Part shown: piece by piece, positions 2,466 to 50,242 of the stretch | Numbering within the stretch: the first letter of the stretch is position 1 | Layout: each line of letters opens with the position of its first letter | NCBI GenBank assembly: GCA_009692005.1 | Contig: SHZZ01000004.1 | Location: forward strand, 62,001-126,000 | DNA from: Gemmataceae bacterium | Lineage (GTDB): Bacteria; Planctomycetota; Planctomycetia; Gemmatales; Gemmataceae | Reading direction: 5' to 3' | DNA: 64,000 nucleotides | Program-made: the position numbers and the translations under genes | The notes under the pieces: generated by a model | Databases searched by the model: none | Told to the model about the DNA's origin: nothing | What the model saw: only the letters and a program-made list of their open reading frames with translations

Positions 2466-5222
2466 CTACTGATTGGCCCTGGAGAATTCTTCGTCGATAG
2501 CTTTCATCTCAGCGCTTTCGGTCTTCGATTGCCACCAGGCCCAGCCGACTGCAACCAGGCCGACACCCAGAACGGACAGGCCGATGGTAAAGCGCTGGTC
2601 CAAATTTGTGCCGTCCTTCAAATTGAAGGCCATCACCAGTGGCAGGATCAACAGGCTGACCATGTTCATCACCTTGATGAGCGGGTTCAAAGCCGGGCCG
2701 GCAGTATCCTTGAGCGGGTCGCCCACGGTGTCGCCAGTGATCGAGGCCATGTGCGACTCGGAACCTTTGCCGGTGGTGGCGGTTTTCGGCTGATCCTCAA
2801 TCGTCTTCTTGGCGTTATCCCAGGCGCCGCCCGAGTTCGCCATGAAGACAGCGATCAACTGGCCGACAACAATCATGCCAGCAAGGTAGCCACCCAGTGC
2901 GTAAGGGCCCATGGCAAAGCCGACAATAACCGGCGCGAAAATCGCCAGCAACCCTGGGCCGATTAATTCCCTTTGCGCGGTCGAGGTGCAGATATCGACT
3001 ACCCTGCCGTAGTTCGGCTTCTTGGTACCCGCCCAGATTTCCTTGTCGCGGAATTGGGCCCGGCATTCCTGAACGATCAGGAAGGCGGCGCGGCCCACCG
3101 CCCGAATGGTCATGCTGCTGAAGAGGAAGGGAACCGCCCCGCCGATCATCATGCCGATGAACACATACGGATCGGCCAAGTTCAACTTGGCGGCGCCCAC
3201 CATGAATTCCTCAATGCTCAGGTTGGTGATGGCGTCCTCGCCTTTGCCCGTGGCAACCACGGCGATAAAGGAGGCGAAAAGCGACACCGCCGCCAAAACT
3301 GCCGAGCCAATGGCTATGCCCTTGGTGATGGCTTTGGTCGTGTTGCCCACTGCGTCGAGGTCGGCCAAAATCTGCCGACTCTTCTTGTAGCTCGCTTCGT
3401 CCATGTAATCGGGATGGCTTGGAGGCAACGGCTGGTTGTTCTCGTCGCGATTGTAACCCATTTCGCCGATGCCATTAGCGTTATCGGCAATGGGCCCGAA
3501 GACATCCATGCTGATGATATTGCCGGTCAGGGTTAACATGCCAATGCCGCACATGGCCACGCCGTAGGCGATGAAAATCGGGTTGGTACCGGAATAAACC
3601 AGGACCGAACCCAATATAGCAGCGGAAATAATGAGCACAGCCCAGACCGCGCTTTCATAACCCAAGGCCAAGCCCTGAATAATGTTGGTAGCATGTCCGG
3701 TGCGGCAAGCCTTGGCCAATTGTTTGACCGGATCGTGTTCCGTACTGGTCCAGTAATCCGTGCACCAGTGCAGCGCCAAGGCCAAGGCAATGCCGATGAG
3801 GCAAGTGACAATGGGCCGCCAATCGAAACCGACTTTCAATGGCATGTACTTCTGCGCCATGGCAACTACCGGTTCATCCGCAATAGCGGCTTGCTTGTCC
3901 CGGGCTTTCTTCCATTCGGAGTTGATGGAGGCAATGTAAGCCTCGCGGGGTTTTTCATCCTTGGGAACCACAGTTTCGATCTTGGTTCCAGCCACCTGGT
4001 TCAACTTGTCAATGAACGCTTTCTCTTTATAGAGTCCGCGTTTTATCGACTCGCCAACAATGTATTCTGGCGACGGGCGGAGGTAAATCGCGCCCAAAGC
4101 ACAAATGGCCACCACGCTGATGAGGGCGCCCATCCAAAAACCCTTGGTCACCGCGCCCATGGCGGACTTCACGCCTTCCTGGCTTTCCGCCTTGACCTGG
4201 CTTGTGGAAATGATGCTGCCAATCACGCCGATGGCGTGCACCAGCAAGGGAAAAACCACCCCCATGTGGCCAAAGCTGGCCATGCCGAGGATAAGAGCCG
4301 CGACAATGGTTACTTCATAGCTTTCGAAAATGTCCGCTGCCATGCCAGCGCAATCGCCGACATTGTCGCCGACATTGTCGGCGATGGTGGCGGCATTACG
4401 GGGATCGTCTTCGGGAATGCCAGCTTCAATTTTGCCCACGAGGTCGGCGCCAACATCCGCGGCCTTGGTGTAAATACCGCCGCCAACGCGCATGAAGAGC
4501 GCCAGCAGGGTTCCGCCAAAACCGAAGCCAAGAAGCACTTCGAACGCTTTTTCACCGTAGTAAAGGAAAATCAGCGTGCCGCCCAAAAGGCCCAAGCCGT
4601 CGGTGAGCATTCCGGTAACGGTCCCGGAGCGGTAGCCAATCTGCAGCGCCCTGCCAAAGCTTTCCCTGGCGGCGGCGGCAACTTTCAAATTCCCAATTGT
4701 CGCCATGCGCATGCCAAACAACCCCACCATGGCGCTAAACAGCGATCCCATGAGGAAGGCCACACCGCGCCCAATGGCAATCTGAATTTCTGTGTTATTA
4801 TTCGGGTCGTTCCACGGCCACTTGGTGGCCACCAGAACGCCCGCAATCACGAAGATCAAGGCCGACACCACGGTGAACTGCCTGCGCAAGTAGGCATAGG
4901 CCCCTTCGCGCACGGCCCGTGCAATCTCTTGCATGGCCGCGGTGCCATTGCCTGCCGCATTGACATACTGGTTCAGCCAGCGGGCGTAGATTAATCCGGA
5001 GATGGCAATGACCAGATTCATCACCAGGGCGAATTTTTCAAACATGGTGAAGTTGGAGTCGCTGCTGAAAAGACTGAACGGGTGCCATTCCTCGCCACCC
5101 TGACCGCTACTCCCGACGCCAACTCCCGCGGCGCCCATTAAGCCGATAGCCAAAAACGCAAACATCAGCCATAACATGCGATTGGGAAATGGTTGAATTT
5201 TCTTCTTGAGAAACTTCTTCAT
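2466..5222 (-). CDS. hppA: membrane-bound proton-translocating pyrophosphatase, K+-independent type
   Basis: This integral membrane pump couples hydrolysis of pyrophosphate to proton export. The 918-residue product has the family signatures: EDDPRN and then DNVGDNVGD near residues 270-290, and GDTVGDPLKDTAGP near the C-terminus. The GNTTKAITKG motif near residue 627 carries lysine where K+-dependent enzymes have alanine, which marks the K+-independent subfamily. A hydrophilic, charged insertion of roughly 75 residues lies near residues 387-465 between membrane helices. The ATG at 5222 is preferred over one at 5261 because AAGGA lies eight bases upstream and the protein then begins MKKFLKKK. 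A strong terminator follows the stop codon. Confidence 0.97.
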   Translation of the reverse strand: MKKFLKKKIQPFPNRMLWLMFAFLAIGLMGAAGVGVGSSGQGGEEWHPFSLFSSDSNFTMFEKFALVMNLVIAISGLIYARWLNQYVNAAGNGTAAMQEIARAVREGAYAYLRRQFTVVSALIFVIAGVLVATKWPWNDPNNNTEIQIAIGRGVAFLMGSLFSAMVGLFGMRMATIGNLKVAAAARESFGRALQIGYRSGTVTGMLTDGLGLLGGTLIFLYYGEKAFEVLLGFGFGGTLLALFMRVGGGIYTKAADVGADLVGKIEAGIPEDDPRNAATIADNVGDNVGDCAGMAADIFESYEVTIVAALILGMASFGHMGVVFPLLVHAIGVIGSIISTSQVKAESQEGVKSAMGAVTKGFWMGALISVVAICALGAIYLRPSPEYIVGESIKRGLYKEKAFIDKLNQVAGTKIETVVPKDEKPREAYIASINSEWKKARDKQAAIADEPVVAMAQKYMPLKVGFDWRPIVTCLIGIALALALHWCTDYWTSTEHDPVKQLAKACRTGHATNIIQGLALGYESAVWAVLIISAAILGSVLVYSGTNPIFIAYGVAMCGIGMLTLTGNIISMDVFGPIADNANGIGEMGYNRDENNQPLPPSHPDYMDEASYKKSRQILADLDAVGNTTKAITKGIAIGSAVLAAVSLFASFIAVVATGKGEDAITNLSIEEFMVGAAKLNLADPYVFIGMMIGGAVPFLFSSMTIRAVGRAAFLIVQECRAQFRDKEIWAGTKKPNYGRVVDICTSTAQRELIGPGLLAIFAPVIVGFAMGPYALGGYLAGMIVVGQLIAVFMANSGGAWDNAKKTIEDQPKTATTGKGSESHMASITGDTVGDPLKDTAGPALNPLIKVMNMVSLLILPLVMAFNLKDGTNLDQRFTIGLSVLGVGLVAVGWAWWQSKTESAEMKAIDEEFSRANQ

Positions 5223-37971: not shown

Positions 37972-38718
37972 ATGCGCATACTTTCCTTGGCGGTTTGCCT
38001 TTGTTTCACCACCCTTGGCTTGGGCCTCCCCGACGATGGCTTCAAGTCCATTTTCAACGGCAAAAACCTCGACGGCTGGGATGGCAACCCAAAGCTGTGG
38101 AGCGTTGAAGACGGCGCCATCACGGGAAAAACCGGCAACGAACCGCACAACAAACTCAAGCACAACACCTTTCTGGTTTGGAAGGGCGGCGAGGTTTCCA
38201 ACTTCAACTTTCGCTGCAAGTTCAAAATCGATGGCGGGAACTCTGGCATTCAATACCGCAGCAAGGAATTCCCCAAGGGCGAGTTCGGCCCTATCGTCGG
38301 CGGGTACCAGGCAGACTTCGAGGCGGGCAAAACCTACTCCGGCATCCTTTACGATGAACGCGGCGTGGCGGGCGGCCGCGGTGTCATGTGCCAACGCGGC
38401 GAAAAGGTCCGCTGGACAAGTGATAACAAGAAAGAAATCACTGGCAAAACCAAACTCACTTCCGAGCAAATTCAAGAATCAATCAAAAAAGACGGTTGGA
38501 ACACCTACGAGATCATTGCCGACGGTGTGAAACTGATTCACAAGGTCAACGGCAATGTCTCGGCAGAAATCTTGGATGAGTCCCCCAAGGCCTTGACCAA
38601 GGGCATTTTGGCTCTGCAAATCCATGTCGGCCCGGTCATGACTGTTCAATTCAAAGATCTGGAGTTGAAAACTCTTGGCGCCCAGGCGACCCCGCCTGAA
38701 AAAAAAAAGGTGAACTAA
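37972..38718 (+). CDS. DUF1080 (3-keto-disaccharide hydrolase-type) secreted protein, possibly the 5' half of a frameshifted gene
   Basis: This 248-residue product has a short signal peptide (MRILSLAVCLCFTTLGLG) and a concanavalin-like DUF1080 domain: FKSIFNGKNLDGWDGN, WSVEDGAITGKTG, NSGIQYRSKEF, GGYQADFEAG, SGILYDERG and GWNTYEIIADG. Characterised relatives cleave 3-keto-glycosides. CGGAG lies seven bases before the ATG. The gene ends in PPEKKKVN; the KKK codons come from a run of ten A, and the next gene continues without a start in the -1 frame. The domain itself is complete, so a free DUF1080 protein is also plausible. Confidence 0.9.
   Translation: MRILSLAVCLCFTTLGLGLPDDGFKSIFNGKNLDGWDGNPKLWSVEDGAITGKTGNEPHNKLKHNTFLVWKGGEVSNFNFRCKFKIDGGNSGIQYRSKEFPKGEFGPIVGGYQADFEAGKTYSGILYDERGVAGGRGVMCQRGEKVRWTSDNKKEITGKTKLTSEQIQESIKKDGWNTYEIIADGVKLIHKVNGNVSAEILDESPKALTKGILALQIHVGPVMTVQFKDLELKTLGAQATPPEKKKVN
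38699..38709 (+). other. A10 slippery tract with in-register A AAA AAG heptamer
   Basis: Ten A followed by G. In the DUF1080 frame the last codons are GAA AAA AAA AAG, so the canonical -1 slippery heptamer A AAA AAG (38703-38709) is in the correct register. The -1 frame is open from 38700 through the following PVC gene. A small perfect hairpin (GGGTC-GGAT-GACCC) lies at 38739-38752. Confidence 0.6.
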
Positions 38719-38759
38719 AGAAAAAAGGGCGCAACAACGGGTCGGATGACCCCAAGCTG

Positions 38760-41225
38760 GTGGGGAAGGAACCCCCGGCGACCGACCCAGCCAAGATCAA
38801 AACCCCAAAAGGGTTTAAAGTTGAGTTACTTCACTCGGTTCCCGCAGCCATGGAAGGTTCCTGGGTGAACCTTTGCGCCGACCTCAAGGGCCGGTTAATC
38901 GTCTCCGATCAGTACGGCTCGCTTTACCGGGTTACCCCTTCGCCCGTGGGCAATTCCAAAATCCCGACCAAAGTGGAGAAAATCCCCGCCGACATTGGCG
39001 AAGCCCAGGGCCTGCTATGGGCCTTCGACAGCCTTTATGTCGTTGTCAACAAAGGTGGGAAATATGACCACGGTTTCTACCGCGTCCGCGACACCAATGG
39101 CGACGACCAGCTTGATGAAGTGACGCAATTACAAAAGTTTACCGCCGGGGGCGAGCATGGACCGCATGCGGTGCTGCTGGCGCCGGATGGCAAAAACCTG
39201 ATCGTGGTGATCGGCAACCAAACCAAAAGGGTGGATTACAAAACCACTCGGGTGCCTCCTCGCTGGGGCGAAGATCACCTGCTGCCCCGCATGCCCGATG
39301 GCCGCGGGTTCATGGCCGGGGTGCTTGGGCCGGGGGGAACTATCTATAAGGTTGATCCCGATGGAAAGAATTGGGAAATCCTGGGCGTGGGGTTCCGCAA
39401 TGAATTCGATGCGGCTTTCAACCGCCAGGGCGAGCTATTCACCTACGACGCCGACATGGAATGGGACTTCAACACTCCGTGGTACCGCCCGACCAGGGTC
39501 TGTCATGTGACCAGCGGGGCGGAATTCGGCTGGCGCAACGGCGCGGGCAAGTGGCCCTCCTACTATCCCGACAGCCTTCCCGGCGTGGTTGATATCGGGC
39601 CGGGTTCACCCACGGGTGTAAGCTTTGGCTACGGGGCAAAGTTTCCCGCCAAGTACCAGAACGCCTTTTTCATCTGCGACTGGAGCTATGGCAAAATGTA
39701 CGCCACTCACCTAATCCCCACCGGCAGCACTTACAAAGCCGAGGTGGAGGAATTCGTCTCCGGGTCCCCATTGCCCCTGACCGATGTCATCATCAATCCC
39801 ACTGATGGCGCCATGTATTTCACCATCGGTGGAAGAAAAACCAAGTCCGGGCTCTACCGGGTGACTTACCAAGGGGAAGAATCGACGGGGCCCTCGCGGC
39901 CAGACACCCGTGGAGAGGAAGACCGGGCCGTTAGAAAACGGCTGGAAAGTTTCCACGCGCCAGGGAAGCCCGAGGCGGTCGCCATTGCCTGGCCGCAACT
40001 AGGCAGCCCCGACCGTTTTATCCGTTTCGCAGCTCGCGTGGCCCTGGAACACCAGGACCCTTCCCTATGGCAAGATAAGGCGCTTGGTGAAAAAGACCCG
40101 CGGAAAGCCATCTACGCTTTGCTCGGCTTGATTCGGGCCACGGCATCAGATCCGCAGCACCAAATTCAGGAGGTGAACCAAGAGTTGAAGGGAAAAATCT
40201 TGTCAGCATTGCTGGCATTGGATTTTTCCAAACTCGGCGATGAGGACCAACTCGACTACCTGCGGACCCTCTCGATCGCTTTCGTGCGCATGGGCGCGCC
40301 GGAAGAAAAGGACGGCCTGGCTCTCGCCAAAAAGCTCGATGCGGCGCTTCCCGGAAAAAACAAAACGGTGAACTCCGATATTTTGCAGGTTCTGGTCTAT
40401 TTGCAATATCCCAGCGCAGCGGCCAAGGGGATAGCGCTCCTTGGCCTCGCGGCGACGCAGGAAGACCAGATGGAAGTGGCCCGTGCACTGCGCATGTTGC
40501 GCGCCGGTTGGACCGCACCATTGAAAAAGGAGTACTTCTCCTGGTTCAACAAAGCCACGGGGTACAAGGGTGGCATGAGCTTCACCAATTTCATTGAGAA
40601 CATTAAGCGGGATGGCCTGGCCATGCTCATGGATCATGACAAGGTCGAACTCAAAGAGATTCTTGAGTTCAAGCCGGTGGCGACGGCGACGGCGCTGCCT
40701 GCGGTGAAGCGGGATTTCGTCAAGCAGTGGAAAATGGACGACCTGGTTGGAAAGCTTGAAAGCGGCTTGAAGAAGGGGCGCAACTTTGAAAAAGGCCAAC
40801 GCCTTTTTGCAGAAGCCCGATGCATTGCCTGCCACCGCTATGGGAACGATGGGGGCGCCCTGGGCCCAGACCTGACCGGCGTGGCCGGGCGTTTTAGCCC
40901 CCGCGATTTGCTCGAATCGACACTCGACCCCAATAAAGTAATCTCGGACCAATATGCCGGTGTCGTCATCGCCACCGATGATGGCAAGCTGGTTGCGGGA
41001 AGGATTATCAACCTGTCTGGGAACAACATCATGGTTAACACCGATATGTTCAACCCGGCGGCGGTCACCAATGTCGATCACCGCAAGGTGGAGTCGATCA
41101 ACATTTCCAAGGTGTCGATGATGCCGGCGGGGCTGGCCGACACTTTGAAGGAAGAGGAAATCCTGGATTTGCTGGCATTTATGCTTTCCCGCGGAGACAA
41201 TAAAAGCCCCATGTTTGCCAAATGA
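38760..41225 (+). CDS. PVC-type haem-binding protein lacking its own start and signal peptide, copy 3
   Basis: The frame is open from 38700; the first possible start here is a GTG at 38760 with no ribosome-binding site, and the first ATG lies inside the propeller. It has no signal peptide, which is impossible for a working c-type cytochrome unless the N-terminus comes from the DUF1080 gene. The order is a propeller (RDTNGDDQLDEVTQL, GGEHGPHAV, YDADMEWDFNTPWYRPTRV), HEAT-like repeats and a cytochrome with CIACH. It is a close paralogue of the protein at 47162-50242, which has its own signal and N-terminal beta domain. A -1 shift at 38709 would give one protein of about 1,084 residues. It overlaps the next gene region at its stop. 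Confidence 0.8.
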   Translation: MGKEPPATDPAKIKTPKGFKVELLHSVPAAMEGSWVNLCADLKGRLIVSDQYGSLYRVTPSPVGNSKIPTKVEKIPADIGEAQGLLWAFDSLYVVVNKGGKYDHGFYRVRDTNGDDQLDEVTQLQKFTAGGEHGPHAVLLAPDGKNLIVVIGNQTKRVDYKTTRVPPRWGEDHLLPRMPDGRGFMAGVLGPGGTIYKVDPDGKNWEILGVGFRNEFDAAFNRQGELFTYDADMEWDFNTPWYRPTRVCHVTSGAEFGWRNGAGKWPSYYPDSLPGVVDIGPGSPTGVSFGYGAKFPAKYQNAFFICDWSYGKMYATHLIPTGSTYKAEVEEFVSGSPLPLTDVIINPTDGAMYFTIGGRKTKSGLYRVTYQGEESTGPSRPDTRGEEDRAVRKRLESFHAPGKPEAVAIAWPQLGSPDRFIRFAARVALEHQDPSLWQDKALGEKDPRKAIYALLGLIRATASDPQHQIQEVNQELKGKILSALLALDFSKLGDEDQLDYLRTLSIAFVRMGAPEEKDGLALAKKLDAALPGKNKTVNSDILQVLVYLQYPSAAAKGIALLGLAATQEDQMEVARALRMLRAGWTAPLKKEYFSWFNKATGYKGGMSFTNFIENIKRDGLAMLMDHDKVELKEILEFKPVATATALPAVKRDFVKQWKMDDLVGKLESGLKKGRNFEKGQRLFAEARCIACHRYGNDGGALGPDLTGVAGRFSPRDLLESTLDPNKVISDQYAGVVIATDDGKLVAGRIINLSGNNIMVNTDMFNPAAVTNVDHRKVESINISKVSMMPAGLADTLKEEEILDLLAFMLSRGDNKSPMFAK

Positions 41226-47161: not shown

Positions 47162-50100
47162 ATGCATTCGCGCAAGGTAATGGCGTTGGCCTTTCTATTC
47201 ATCCTGGCACGGGTTTCTCTTGCTGATGATTCCAGGATTTTTAAGCAGAAGCCTGAAGTCATGCCGACTTCCGGTCAGGCTGAAGGAACCGTCAAGGAGA
47301 AACCCAAAGGGGCGGGAATGGACAAAGGCCCAGTTCCCCTGTGGATTTGGGGCAAAGACAATAACACCAACTACCTGTTAACCAAGGAATTTCAAACCAG
47401 CGCGAAAAAAGGCGTTTTGCGCGCCACTTGCGACAACCGCATGGTGGTCCGGGTGAATGGCAAGACCGTTGCGCAAAGCGATGAATGGAAAAGCCCGGTG
47501 GAAACAGATATTTCCCCCCACCTGATTTCTGGGAACAACAAGATTGAAGCGGCGGTGCAAAACGAAGGCGCCCAGGCGGGGTTTTTACTGAAGTTAGTTT
47601 TGACCACCGCGGATGGAAAGTCCACGGCTGTGATTTCCGACCAGACTTGGAAAGCCACGCCAACCCAGGGCAAGCAGGCGGAAAATGTCAAGCGCATTGG
47701 GAAACTGGGGGATGCTCCCTGGGGGGATGTTTTTTCTGGGGCGCCAGGGAACGACCTCGGCAAATTCAATCTTCTCCCAGGCTTTCAGGTCGAGAAACTT
47801 TTCACTGTGCCCAAGGATCAGTTGGGTTCGTGGGTCTGCATTACGGTGGATCCCAAGGGCAGGATTATTGCCAGCGATCAGAATGGCAAAGGCCTGTGCA
47901 GGATCACGCCACCCGCTATCGGTTCCATGGAAGAAACCCGTGTGGAACATTTGCCTGTAAAAATCACCGCGGCACAGGGGTTGCTTTTCGCTTTTGGCAG
48001 CCTTTATGCCAGCGTCAATGGCGGGCCGGGAAGCGGGCTTTACCGCATCCGCGACACCAACGGCGACGACCAATTTGATGAAGTCGTGAAATTGAAAGCT
48101 CTGCAAGGAGGAGGGGAGCATGGCCCTCATGCCTTGCGCCTTTCGCCAGATGGAAAATCGATTCTGGTGATGTGCGGCAACCACACTAAACCGCCGGAGA
48201 ATTTTCAGGCCAGCAGAGTGCCAAAAAACTGGGGCGAGGATCACCTCCTGCCCAGAATGTGGGATGCCAATGGCCACGCTCGCGGCATCATGGCTCCGGG
48301 GGGTTACATCGCACGAACCGACCCCGAGGGGAAAGAATGGGAAATGATCAGCATCGGCTACAGAAACGCCTACGATTTTGGCATTAACACCGTCGGAGAG
48401 CTTTTCGCTTACGACGCCGACATGGAATGGGACATGGGCAGCCCTTGGTACCGGCCCACCCGCGTCAACCATGCGCCCAGCGGCAGCGATCTCGGCTGGC
48501 GCAGCGGCTCGGGCAAGTGGCCCTCTTATTATCTCGACAGCCTGCCCGGCATGGTCGACATCGGCCCGGGTTCCCCGGTGGGGGTGGAGTTTGGCACTGG
48601 CGCTAAGTTTCCCGCCAAATATCAGAAGGCGCTTTTCATTTGCGATTGGACCTTTGGCACCATGTATGCCATCCATATGGAACCCGACGGCAGTTCCTAC
48701 AAGGGGGTCAAGGAGGAATTTGTCTCGCGCACCCCATTGCCCCTTACCGATGCGGCGGTGGGCAAGGACGGCGCCTTGTATTTTTCCAGTGGCGGGCGCG
48801 GCACCCAGTCGGAACTTTTCCGCGTCACTTATATTGGCAAGGACGATACCGCTCCGGTTTCCGCGCAGGAGGACAGTGGCGCCAAGAGCAGACTTTTGCG
48901 AAAGAAGCTCGAGGAGTTTCACCAACCGGGCGAGATCCAGGCCAGCCAGTTGGATTTTATTTGGACCCATTTGGGACACAGCGACCGCTACATTCGCTAT
49001 GCCGCGCGGGTGGCACTTGAGCATCAGCCGGTCGCCTCCTGGCAAGACCGAGTTTTCAAGGAAACCGGAACGGAAACTCTGTTGACTGCCTCGGTGGCGC
49101 TGGCACGCCAAGGGGTTCCTTCCCTGCAGAGCGCTCTGGTGAATTCGCTGAATAAGCTGGAATTCTCCAGCCTTTCCCTGGAGCAACAATTGGAATGGCT
49201 GCGGGTTTATCAGGTTGCTTTTATCCGCATGGGTCAGCCGGGCAAGGCGGATTTAGAGAAAGTCACCCAAAAACTGGATGCCCTTTTTCCCTCGCAGCAC
49301 CACTCCTTGAATCAAGAACTGGTCAACTTGTTGGTCTACTTGCAATCGCCACAGATCGCTCGAAAAGTGACCGCCCTGTTGGTGCAACCATCTCCACCGT
49401 TGGATCAAAAGTCAATTGATGACTTGCTCTCGCGCAACCGCGGCTACGGCCAAACAATTGCCCGCATTCTGGCCAACAGCCCCGACTTGCAAAAACTCCA
49501 CTACCTATTCGCCATGAGAAACCTCAAGAATCATTGGACCCTGGAACACCGCAAGGTTTATTTCACGACGCTGAATGAGATGCGCACGAAGAGCGGCGGC
49601 GCCAGTTACCAGGGTTTTTTGAATCTCATTGAAAAGGATGCCTTTGACAACGCCACCGACGCTGATCGGCTGGCCATTGAGGCCCTGGGTTTGCGCAAGC
49701 CTTTCCAGGTGAAAGCGCTGCCCAAGGCAATTGGCCCGGGCAAGGAATGGAAGTTGGCTGAACTGGTCCAGGCATCGGAAGGAAAATTGAAAGGGCGGAA
49801 TTTCAAAAACGGGGAAAAAATGTTTGCGGCCGCCCGCTGTGTTGTTTGCCATCGTTTCAACGGGGATGGCGGAGCCACGGGACCCGATTTAACCCAGGCC
49901 GCGGGGCGGTTTACACTCAAAGACCTTTGCGAATCGATTGTCGAACCGAACAAGGTGATCTCCGATCAGTACCGCGCCTCGATTATTGAGACGAAAACCG
50001 GCCAGACCATCACTGGCAAAATCGTCAGTGAAAATCAGGAGGCCATAATTGTCGTCACCGACCCGGAGGATTCCACCAAGGTGCGGGAGTTAAAAAAAAC

Positions 50101-50242
50101 CGCCATTGAGCAGGTCATACCCGCTCCTGTTTCTTTAATGCCAGGCAACCTTTTATTGACCTTGAACGACACTGAAGTGTGGGACCTGCTGGCCTATTTG
50201 CTTTCGCGGGGCGATCCGGCCAGCCCCTATTTCAGGAATTAA
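47162..50242 (+). CDS. PVC-type haem-binding dehydrogenase protein with N-terminal beta-sandwich, copy 5
   Basis: This secreted protein of 1,026 residues has a signal peptide (KVMALAFLFILARVSLA), then a domain of about 140 residues with VLRATCDNRMVVRVNGKTVA and ISPHLISGNNKIEAAVQNEG, which looks like a galactose-binding-type beta-sandwich. The propeller follows (RDTNGDDQFDEVVKL, GGEHGPHAL, YDADMEWDMGSPWYRPTRV), then helical repeats and a cytochrome with CVVCH near residue 893. The propeller and cytochrome are strongly similar to the start-less copy at 38760. GGAG lies eight bases before the ATG. It ends seven bases from the convergent membrane-protein gene. Confidence 0.9.
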   Translation: MHSRKVMALAFLFILARVSLADDSRIFKQKPEVMPTSGQAEGTVKEKPKGAGMDKGPVPLWIWGKDNNTNYLLTKEFQTSAKKGVLRATCDNRMVVRVNGKTVAQSDEWKSPVETDISPHLISGNNKIEAAVQNEGAQAGFLLKLVLTTADGKSTAVISDQTWKATPTQGKQAENVKRIGKLGDAPWGDVFSGAPGNDLGKFNLLPGFQVEKLFTVPKDQLGSWVCITVDPKGRIIASDQNGKGLCRITPPAIGSMEETRVEHLPVKITAAQGLLFAFGSLYASVNGGPGSGLYRIRDTNGDDQFDEVVKLKALQGGGEHGPHALRLSPDGKSILVMCGNHTKPPENFQASRVPKNWGEDHLLPRMWDANGHARGIMAPGGYIARTDPEGKEWEMISIGYRNAYDFGINTVGELFAYDADMEWDMGSPWYRPTRVNHAPSGSDLGWRSGSGKWPSYYLDSLPGMVDIGPGSPVGVEFGTGAKFPAKYQKALFICDWTFGTMYAIHMEPDGSSYKGVKEEFVSRTPLPLTDAAVGKDGALYFSSGGRGTQSELFRVTYIGKDDTAPVSAQEDSGAKSRLLRKKLEEFHQPGEIQASQLDFIWTHLGHSDRYIRYAARVALEHQPVASWQDRVFKETGTETLLTASVALARQGVPSLQSALVNSLNKLEFSSLSLEQQLEWLRVYQVAFIRMGQPGKADLEKVTQKLDALFPSQHHSLNQELVNLLVYLQSPQIARKVTALLVQPSPPLDQKSIDDLLSRNRGYGQTIARILANSPDLQKLHYLFAMRNLKNHWTLEHRKVYFTTLNEMRTKSGGASYQGFLNLIEKDAFDNATDADRLAIEALGLRKPFQVKALPKAIGPGKEWKLAELVQASEGKLKGRNFKNGEKMFAAARCVVCHRFNGDGGATGPDLTQAAGRFTLKDLCESIVEPNKVISDQYRASIIETKTGQTITGKIVSENQEAIIVVTDPEDSTKVRELKKTAIEQVIPAPVSLMPGNLLLTLNDTEVWDLLAYLLSRGDPASPYFRN

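Follow-up and report, generated by a model that had tools for sequence, protein, structure and literature searches.

The question raised by this locus is how a reading frame for a haem protein comes to be expressed when it has neither a conserved start nor a visible export signal of its own, and when the gene ahead of it, in another frame, ends in a run of ten A residues and a stop. The locus lies in a window of 64,000 nucleotides (the whole stretch of DNA analyzed), taken from a 4.19-Mb planctomycete draft genome in 99 contigs. A first-pass annotation had read it as follows: a DUF1080 gene ends a few codons past an A10 run that holds an in-register A_AAA_AAG heptamer; a -1 frame without stops from 38700 to 41225 encodes a PVC haem protein that lacks a signal peptide; slippage at the run could yield both free DUF1080 and a joined product of about 1,084 residues. 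The description of the two frames holds, and the joined length is exact (246 + 838 = 1,084 residues). The slippage proposal is supported by comparison with related loci, a transcriptional event being favored over a ribosomal shift of the dnaX type; nothing experimental bears on it. The features needed for the argument are given here in window coordinates; the labels g20, g23, g416, f1, f4 and f6 used for genera and families are handles, not taxon names.

37972-38718, + strand: DUF1080 / 3-keto-disaccharide hydrolase ORF with a signal peptide; free product of 248 aa in the zero frame; PF06439, E 2.5e-34
38683-38698, + strand: perfect 6-bp hairpin CAGGCG-ACCC-CGCCTG abutting the 5' side of the tract; the fold of 38660-38709 has -14.5 kcal/mol, z -2.5
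38699-38708, + strand: putative A10 slippage tract; equal length in six f1 species; other families have A9 or A10 at this joint
38700-38709, + strand: overlapping heptamers A_AAA_AAA (38700-38706) and A_AAA_AAG (38703-38709), both in register by sequence inspection
38700-41225, + strand: -1 frame ORF, proposed to extend DUF1080 at its C-terminus; lysine-rich linker, PQQ-dehydrogenase-like propeller, HEAT-like helical repeats and cytochrome c
38716-38718, + strand: zero-frame stop TAA, 7 nt past the tract
38750-38765, + strand: 5-bp hairpin CCCCA/TGGGG, judged to lie outside the signal
38814-39869, + strand: beta-propeller domain; AlphaFold2 model with mean pLDDT 82.8, best Foldseek match 5min, E 2.1e-10
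40788-40925, + strand: cytochrome c core (PF00034, TIGR02603), with a CIACH haem motif at 40821-40835
47162-50242, + strand: paralogue that has a signal peptide of its own and a beta domain at the N-terminus; best segment 52% identical

Across the tract the zero frame reads CCT GAA AAA AAA AAG GTG AAC TAA. The upstream ORF scores 119.4 bits against PF06439 (3keto-disac_hyd), for which the gathering score is 26.8; its signal peptide was called by eye only. The draft genome holds about 13 tracts of at least ten A, and among the stretches scanned only that at 38699-38708 sits at a frame break between two ORFs; this survey, set at nine or more A, covered every tract of at least ten and only part of the A9 tracts. 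Elsewhere in the same genome, an A10 (L165; G000:C58, tract at 2967) lies within a 610-codon open frame without a frame break, and is a possible slippage site.

Comparison of homologous loci, put forward in the first-pass annotation as a check, finds the frame break conserved across species and genera, and finds natural in-frame fusions as well. Five species of g20, a genus of the window's family (G019, G106, G107, G108 and G110), have the same gene order, exactly A10 and the -1 offset; in all six f1 species (these five and the window's own, two genera) the zero-frame stop comes 1-2 codons past the tract. Nucleotide identity between g20 and the window is 69-71%, and about 57-66% of third codon positions differ, near saturation; indels occur in the flanks of the tract, none in its length. 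Substitutions relative to the window, counted by codon position, number [55,44,158] in the zero frame 5' of the tract and [167,118,511] in the -1 frame 3' of it. That is, changes pile up at third positions of the zero frame and then of the -1 frame, so that each frame has the look of a translated sequence under purifying selection, the change from one to the other falling at the tract. The linker is likewise conserved in the -1 frame. In G110, C instead of G follows the run: A_AAA_AAG is lost and A10 is kept. Species within one genus are not independent evidence.

Broken junctions were found in 16 genomes of nine genera in total, all with a -1 offset and all with A9 or A10; in nearly all homologous joints the stop follows directly or within a few codons (14 codons in L063). 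In g416, which belongs to another family and represents a second cytochrome lineage, a beta domain comes after DUF1080, and then the same kind of haem protein. Its five species are about 70% identical in nucleotide sequence: three have A9 and one A10, each with an immediate stop and the -1 offset, and the fifth has A10 with the fusion in frame. At this last locus (L058, the same as L237; tract at 4478-4487) a latent TAA lies one base out of register, and the default product, free or fused, may be reversed. The weakest case, L063, is a single Planctomicrobium genome in which an A10 broken joint sits within a clade of in-frame fusions.

A pattern consisting of a DUF1080 C-terminal motif and then A9 within 30 nt was sought in 398 genomes of the class, 229 of family f6 and 170 of family f4 (the samples overlap). 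It matched such joints almost exclusively, and a reversed control pattern gave one match overall; a match in an unrelated gene (L305) was discarded. In five genera (G676, G768, G795, G758 and G941; loci L264, L268, L269, L270 and L306) the partner encoded in the -1 frame is ThuA (PF06283), always at A10 and always with the -1 offset; for these joints A9 was a requirement of the search. The Pfam ThuA score exceeds the gathering score in four of the five and falls below it in G758 (L270), where the contig end cuts the domain; NPCBM and DUF7133 follow ThuA in two. A second A10, in frame, lies in the post-ThuA linker of L268 (minus strand, 2364); slippage there would truncate the product.

Fusions of DUF1080 with PVC cytochrome or with ThuA also occur naturally in frame, in planctomycetes and verrucomicrobia, and they have the same domain order, which marks the joined product as a natural architecture; unlike the broken joints, they are always fused. 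The first-pass annotation had inferred the usual architecture from the paralogue at 47162-50242. This does carry a signal of its own and, N-terminally, a beta domain, but that domain is sugar-binding-like rather than DUF1080, so the argument rests on other genomes. Where loci were fetched by the cytochrome alone and the tract ignored, A9 or A10 was present at 10/10 broken joints and in only one of 32 in-frame DUF1080-cytochrome fusions; the other 31 have no run of at least nine A. Fisher's test gives p 6e-8, with the misclassified L004 counted as broken, and related rows overstate the number of independent events. L004, at first scored as broken but lacking a tract, was dropped: it is an independent gene that has a signal peptide of its own. 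The best loci of a phylum-wide protein search included no further out-of-frame DUF1080-cytochrome joint. Two in-frame DUF1080-ThuA genes, L267 with A9 and L322 without, are interspersed with broken ones in the DUF1080 tree, and the state of that joint has thus changed more than once. Nine is the length at which runs of A or T are avoided within the genes of many bacteria (PMC1088944), a point in favor of the polymerase.

A frameshifted DUF1080 fusion is, in our judgment, very probably made by some mechanism, although slippage itself is inferred, in the absence of transcript or peptide data. That RNA polymerase is the slipping machine at A10, giving free DUF1080 and fusion, has a probability of roughly 0.7, and this too is inferred without RNA data. 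Most transcripts would keep A10 and specify secreted free DUF1080, with its stop two codons past the tract; in a fraction of transcripts the polymerase would add one A, which would bring the downstream frame into register; the A11 transcript would then specify a secreted 1,084-residue protein comprising DUF1080, the PQQ-dehydrogenase-like propeller, the helical repeats and cytochrome c. In 16/16 broken joints, the addition of a single A would bring the frame downstream back into register. The tract begins at codon position 1, 2 or 3 according to lineage, and its length is always 9-10. Sequence comparison shows that the tract, the -1 offset and both coding frames are conserved, and that the haem part has no conserved means of independent start or export; the occurrence of slippage, its transcriptional stage, its efficiency and the likely role of the products are inferred.

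The best surviving alternative, unlikely but not to be dismissed, places the event in translation: a programmed -1 ribosomal frameshift at A_AAA_AAG or A_AAA_AAA, in which two lysine tRNAs slip back by one base and the same fusion comes from an unaltered mRNA. The window has each of the two heptamers in register, and the stop is close behind the tract; moreover, the offset is -1 in 16/16 joints, and a uniform shift direction points to ribosomal shifting according to Antonov et al. 2013 (PMC3711429). This uniformity counts against the polymerase, though addition of mostly one A would look identical. On the other side, A_AAA_AAG is absent not only from G110 but from several ThuA joints (the AAA AAA AAA AGR junctions); the window's genome has two lysine tRNAs, a tRNA-Lys(UUU) and a separate tRNA-Lys(CUU), and in T. 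thermophilus dnaX a review links two lysine tRNAs to transcriptional, not ribosomal, slippage (PMC5009743). An in-phase A7 would suffice for the ribosome, yet no broken joint with A7 or A8 was found in 119 family-f6 genomes searched for runs of at least seven. Alignment and folding gave no conserved stem-loop about 5-8 nt downstream of the tract, and inspection of the alignment gave no conserved Shine-Dalgarno-like purine-rich element about 10 nt upstream. Length is kept while phase and A_AAA_AAG are not, there are two lysine tRNAs, and no stimulator lies at ribosomal spacing; for these reasons RNA polymerase is favored. Any run of nine or more A, however, holds an in-phase A_AAA_AAA, and sequence alone does not rule out a ribosomal shift.

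The 5-bp downstream hairpin described in the first-pass annotation exists, at about 41 nt past the tract and not about 30; as part of a signal it fails, being absent from the minimum-energy fold, unconserved and too far away. The placement of the hairpin at 38683-38698 resembles that in stem-loop-assisted polymerase slippage. The alignment shows that it is not conserved in g20; it was dropped as a general element, since it occurs in the window only, and is an optional local feature at most. In g20 (L141, L142, L143, L007) a 9-bp hairpin, AGCTGGCGG/CCGCCAGCT, lies about 50 nt past the tract, with fold z-scores down to -4.4. It was rejected as a ribosomal stimulator: it is too far, and the conserved KLxGKEPPA peptide accounts for it at least partly. 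The nearest conserved hairpin, about 46-52 nt downstream of the tract, lies within protein-conserved sequence, and only 1/36 consensus pairs has a two-sided change.

Phase variation, in which the length of the A10 would vary in the DNA between cells, some encoding the fusion and others the free enzyme, is improbable. Homopolymers do mutate fast, and g416, with one species in frame and four out of frame, could be read in this way; but a switching locus would be expected in frame about equally often, and six f1 species share one out-of-frame length.

Still less credible is the supposition that there are two ordinary genes, the second expressed by reinitiation or from an internal start. The earliest ATG, GTG or TTG in the -1 ORF is a GTG at 38760, but relatives in the sister genus have GCG there; no start codon for this ORF is conserved across relatives, CTG being the only one common to the linker, and the linker itself is conserved in the -1 frame. 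Attachment of c-type haem takes place outside the cytoplasm; the haem domain needs export, yet no signal peptide is visible in the -1 ORF. The two-gene arrangement does occur in g23. Relatives in which the second gene has its own start and signal had been named beforehand as grounds for refutation, and g23 supplies them, yet with a cytochrome of a different branch, so that the fusion is not refuted. The DUF1080 tree groups g23 with the window and g20. The cytochrome tree unites the window and g20 in a clade with 100/100 support; in the two g23 loci where the next gene is readable (L006, L144), the neighboring cytochrome, with its own start and signal, belongs elsewhere. The DUF1080 orthologue of g23 (L006, L144, L328) is free-standing. 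The sequences suggest replacement of the partner. For the f1 joint a single origin is possible, followed in g23 by loss of the joint or by exchange of its partner, alternatives between which the two trees do not decide.

Assembly error or recent pseudogene formation, for which one could cite the error-prone nature of homopolymers and a draft in 99 contigs, is virtually ruled out, since separately assembled genomes of many species show this tract and this offset, one of them (G676, with a DUF1080-ThuA A10 joint) a single contig, and both frames appear to be under purifying selection; as raised in the first-pass annotation, assembly error is refuted for the pattern overall, although in the window's own genome the true tract length could still differ from the assembled one.

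A polymerase-slippage joint of the kind proposed has partial precedents. Like two-ORF dnaX genes with A10 (PMC3711429) and T. thermophilus dnaX, it has a coding-strand poly-A of 9-10; as in the former, a zero-frame stop follows and the longer product needs a shift (PMC3711429); as in the latter, there are two lysine tRNAs (PMC5009743). However, dnaX encodes a cytoplasmic replication subunit and DUF1080 is a secreted enzyme; furthermore, the DUF1080 joint unites two catalytic-looking modules and recurs with different partner domains. With the -1 ribosomal frameshift of E. coli dnaX the window shares the in-register A_AAA_AAG and the direction; it differs in lacking a conserved stimulatory hairpin or Shine-Dalgarno element, in having two tRNA-Lys, and in that the heptamer is not present in all relatives. 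In Citrobacter rodentium tssM1 an interrupted gene likewise has a poly-A (A11) before the stop; there, slippage adds As to give long and short forms, both of them needed (PMC4256274). That unrelated protein has been bench-tested in C. rodentium and Y. pseudotuberculosis (PMC4256274), whereas the DUF1080 case is comparative only. Full-text searches of an open-access library found no paper pairing DUF1080 with 'frameshift', and none on slippage in planctomycete genes.

What might be gained from the longer form is suggested by its domains. The -1 ORF scores 91.4 bits against TIGR02603 (CxxCH haem domain; cut-off 68.15), and the cysteines and histidine of the haem motif are invariant across 27 homologues. 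Against TIGR02604, the profile for the N-terminal propeller, it reaches 67.7 bits, under the cut-off of 122.2; a propeller is present in the AlphaFold2 model, and Foldseek places soluble PQQ sugar dehydrogenases as its nearest solved folds. BT2157, a 3-ketotrehalose hydrolase, is one of the DUF1080 enzymes, and CCNA_01705 has been proposed to act as a periplasmic 3'-ketolactose hydrolase (PMC9007349). The other partner, ThuA, is annotated with trehalose use. From the modeled fold, oxidation of a glycoside and cleavage of the 3-ketoglycoside may be coupled in the fusion, PQQ binding and activity both being inferred: the oxidizing module would form a 3-keto-glycoside, the haem could accept the electrons, and the DUF1080 module would cleave the product. 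The fusion could thus hand the 3-keto intermediate from the oxidizing to the cleaving part, and the free enzyme could act on other substrates.

To our knowledge, few cellular genes rely on programmed slippage, and most cases are single genes. In the present case one protein joint has this kind of site in each of nine genera, and its partners are of two unrelated kinds; in-frame relatives serve as natural controls. Gene callers and assemblers will split such genes or 'correct' them. We lean, by a modest degree, toward a general reading: DUF1080 genes of planctomycetes would have a reusable 'optional-domain' joint, an A9-A10 site of polymerase slippage repeatedly gained and lost, which would set the ratio of free, secreted 3-ketoglycoside hydrolase to the form fused with an oxidizing haem module or with ThuA. 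The finding opens the questions of why the enzyme is kept both free and fused, and of how often slippage sites arise and vanish.
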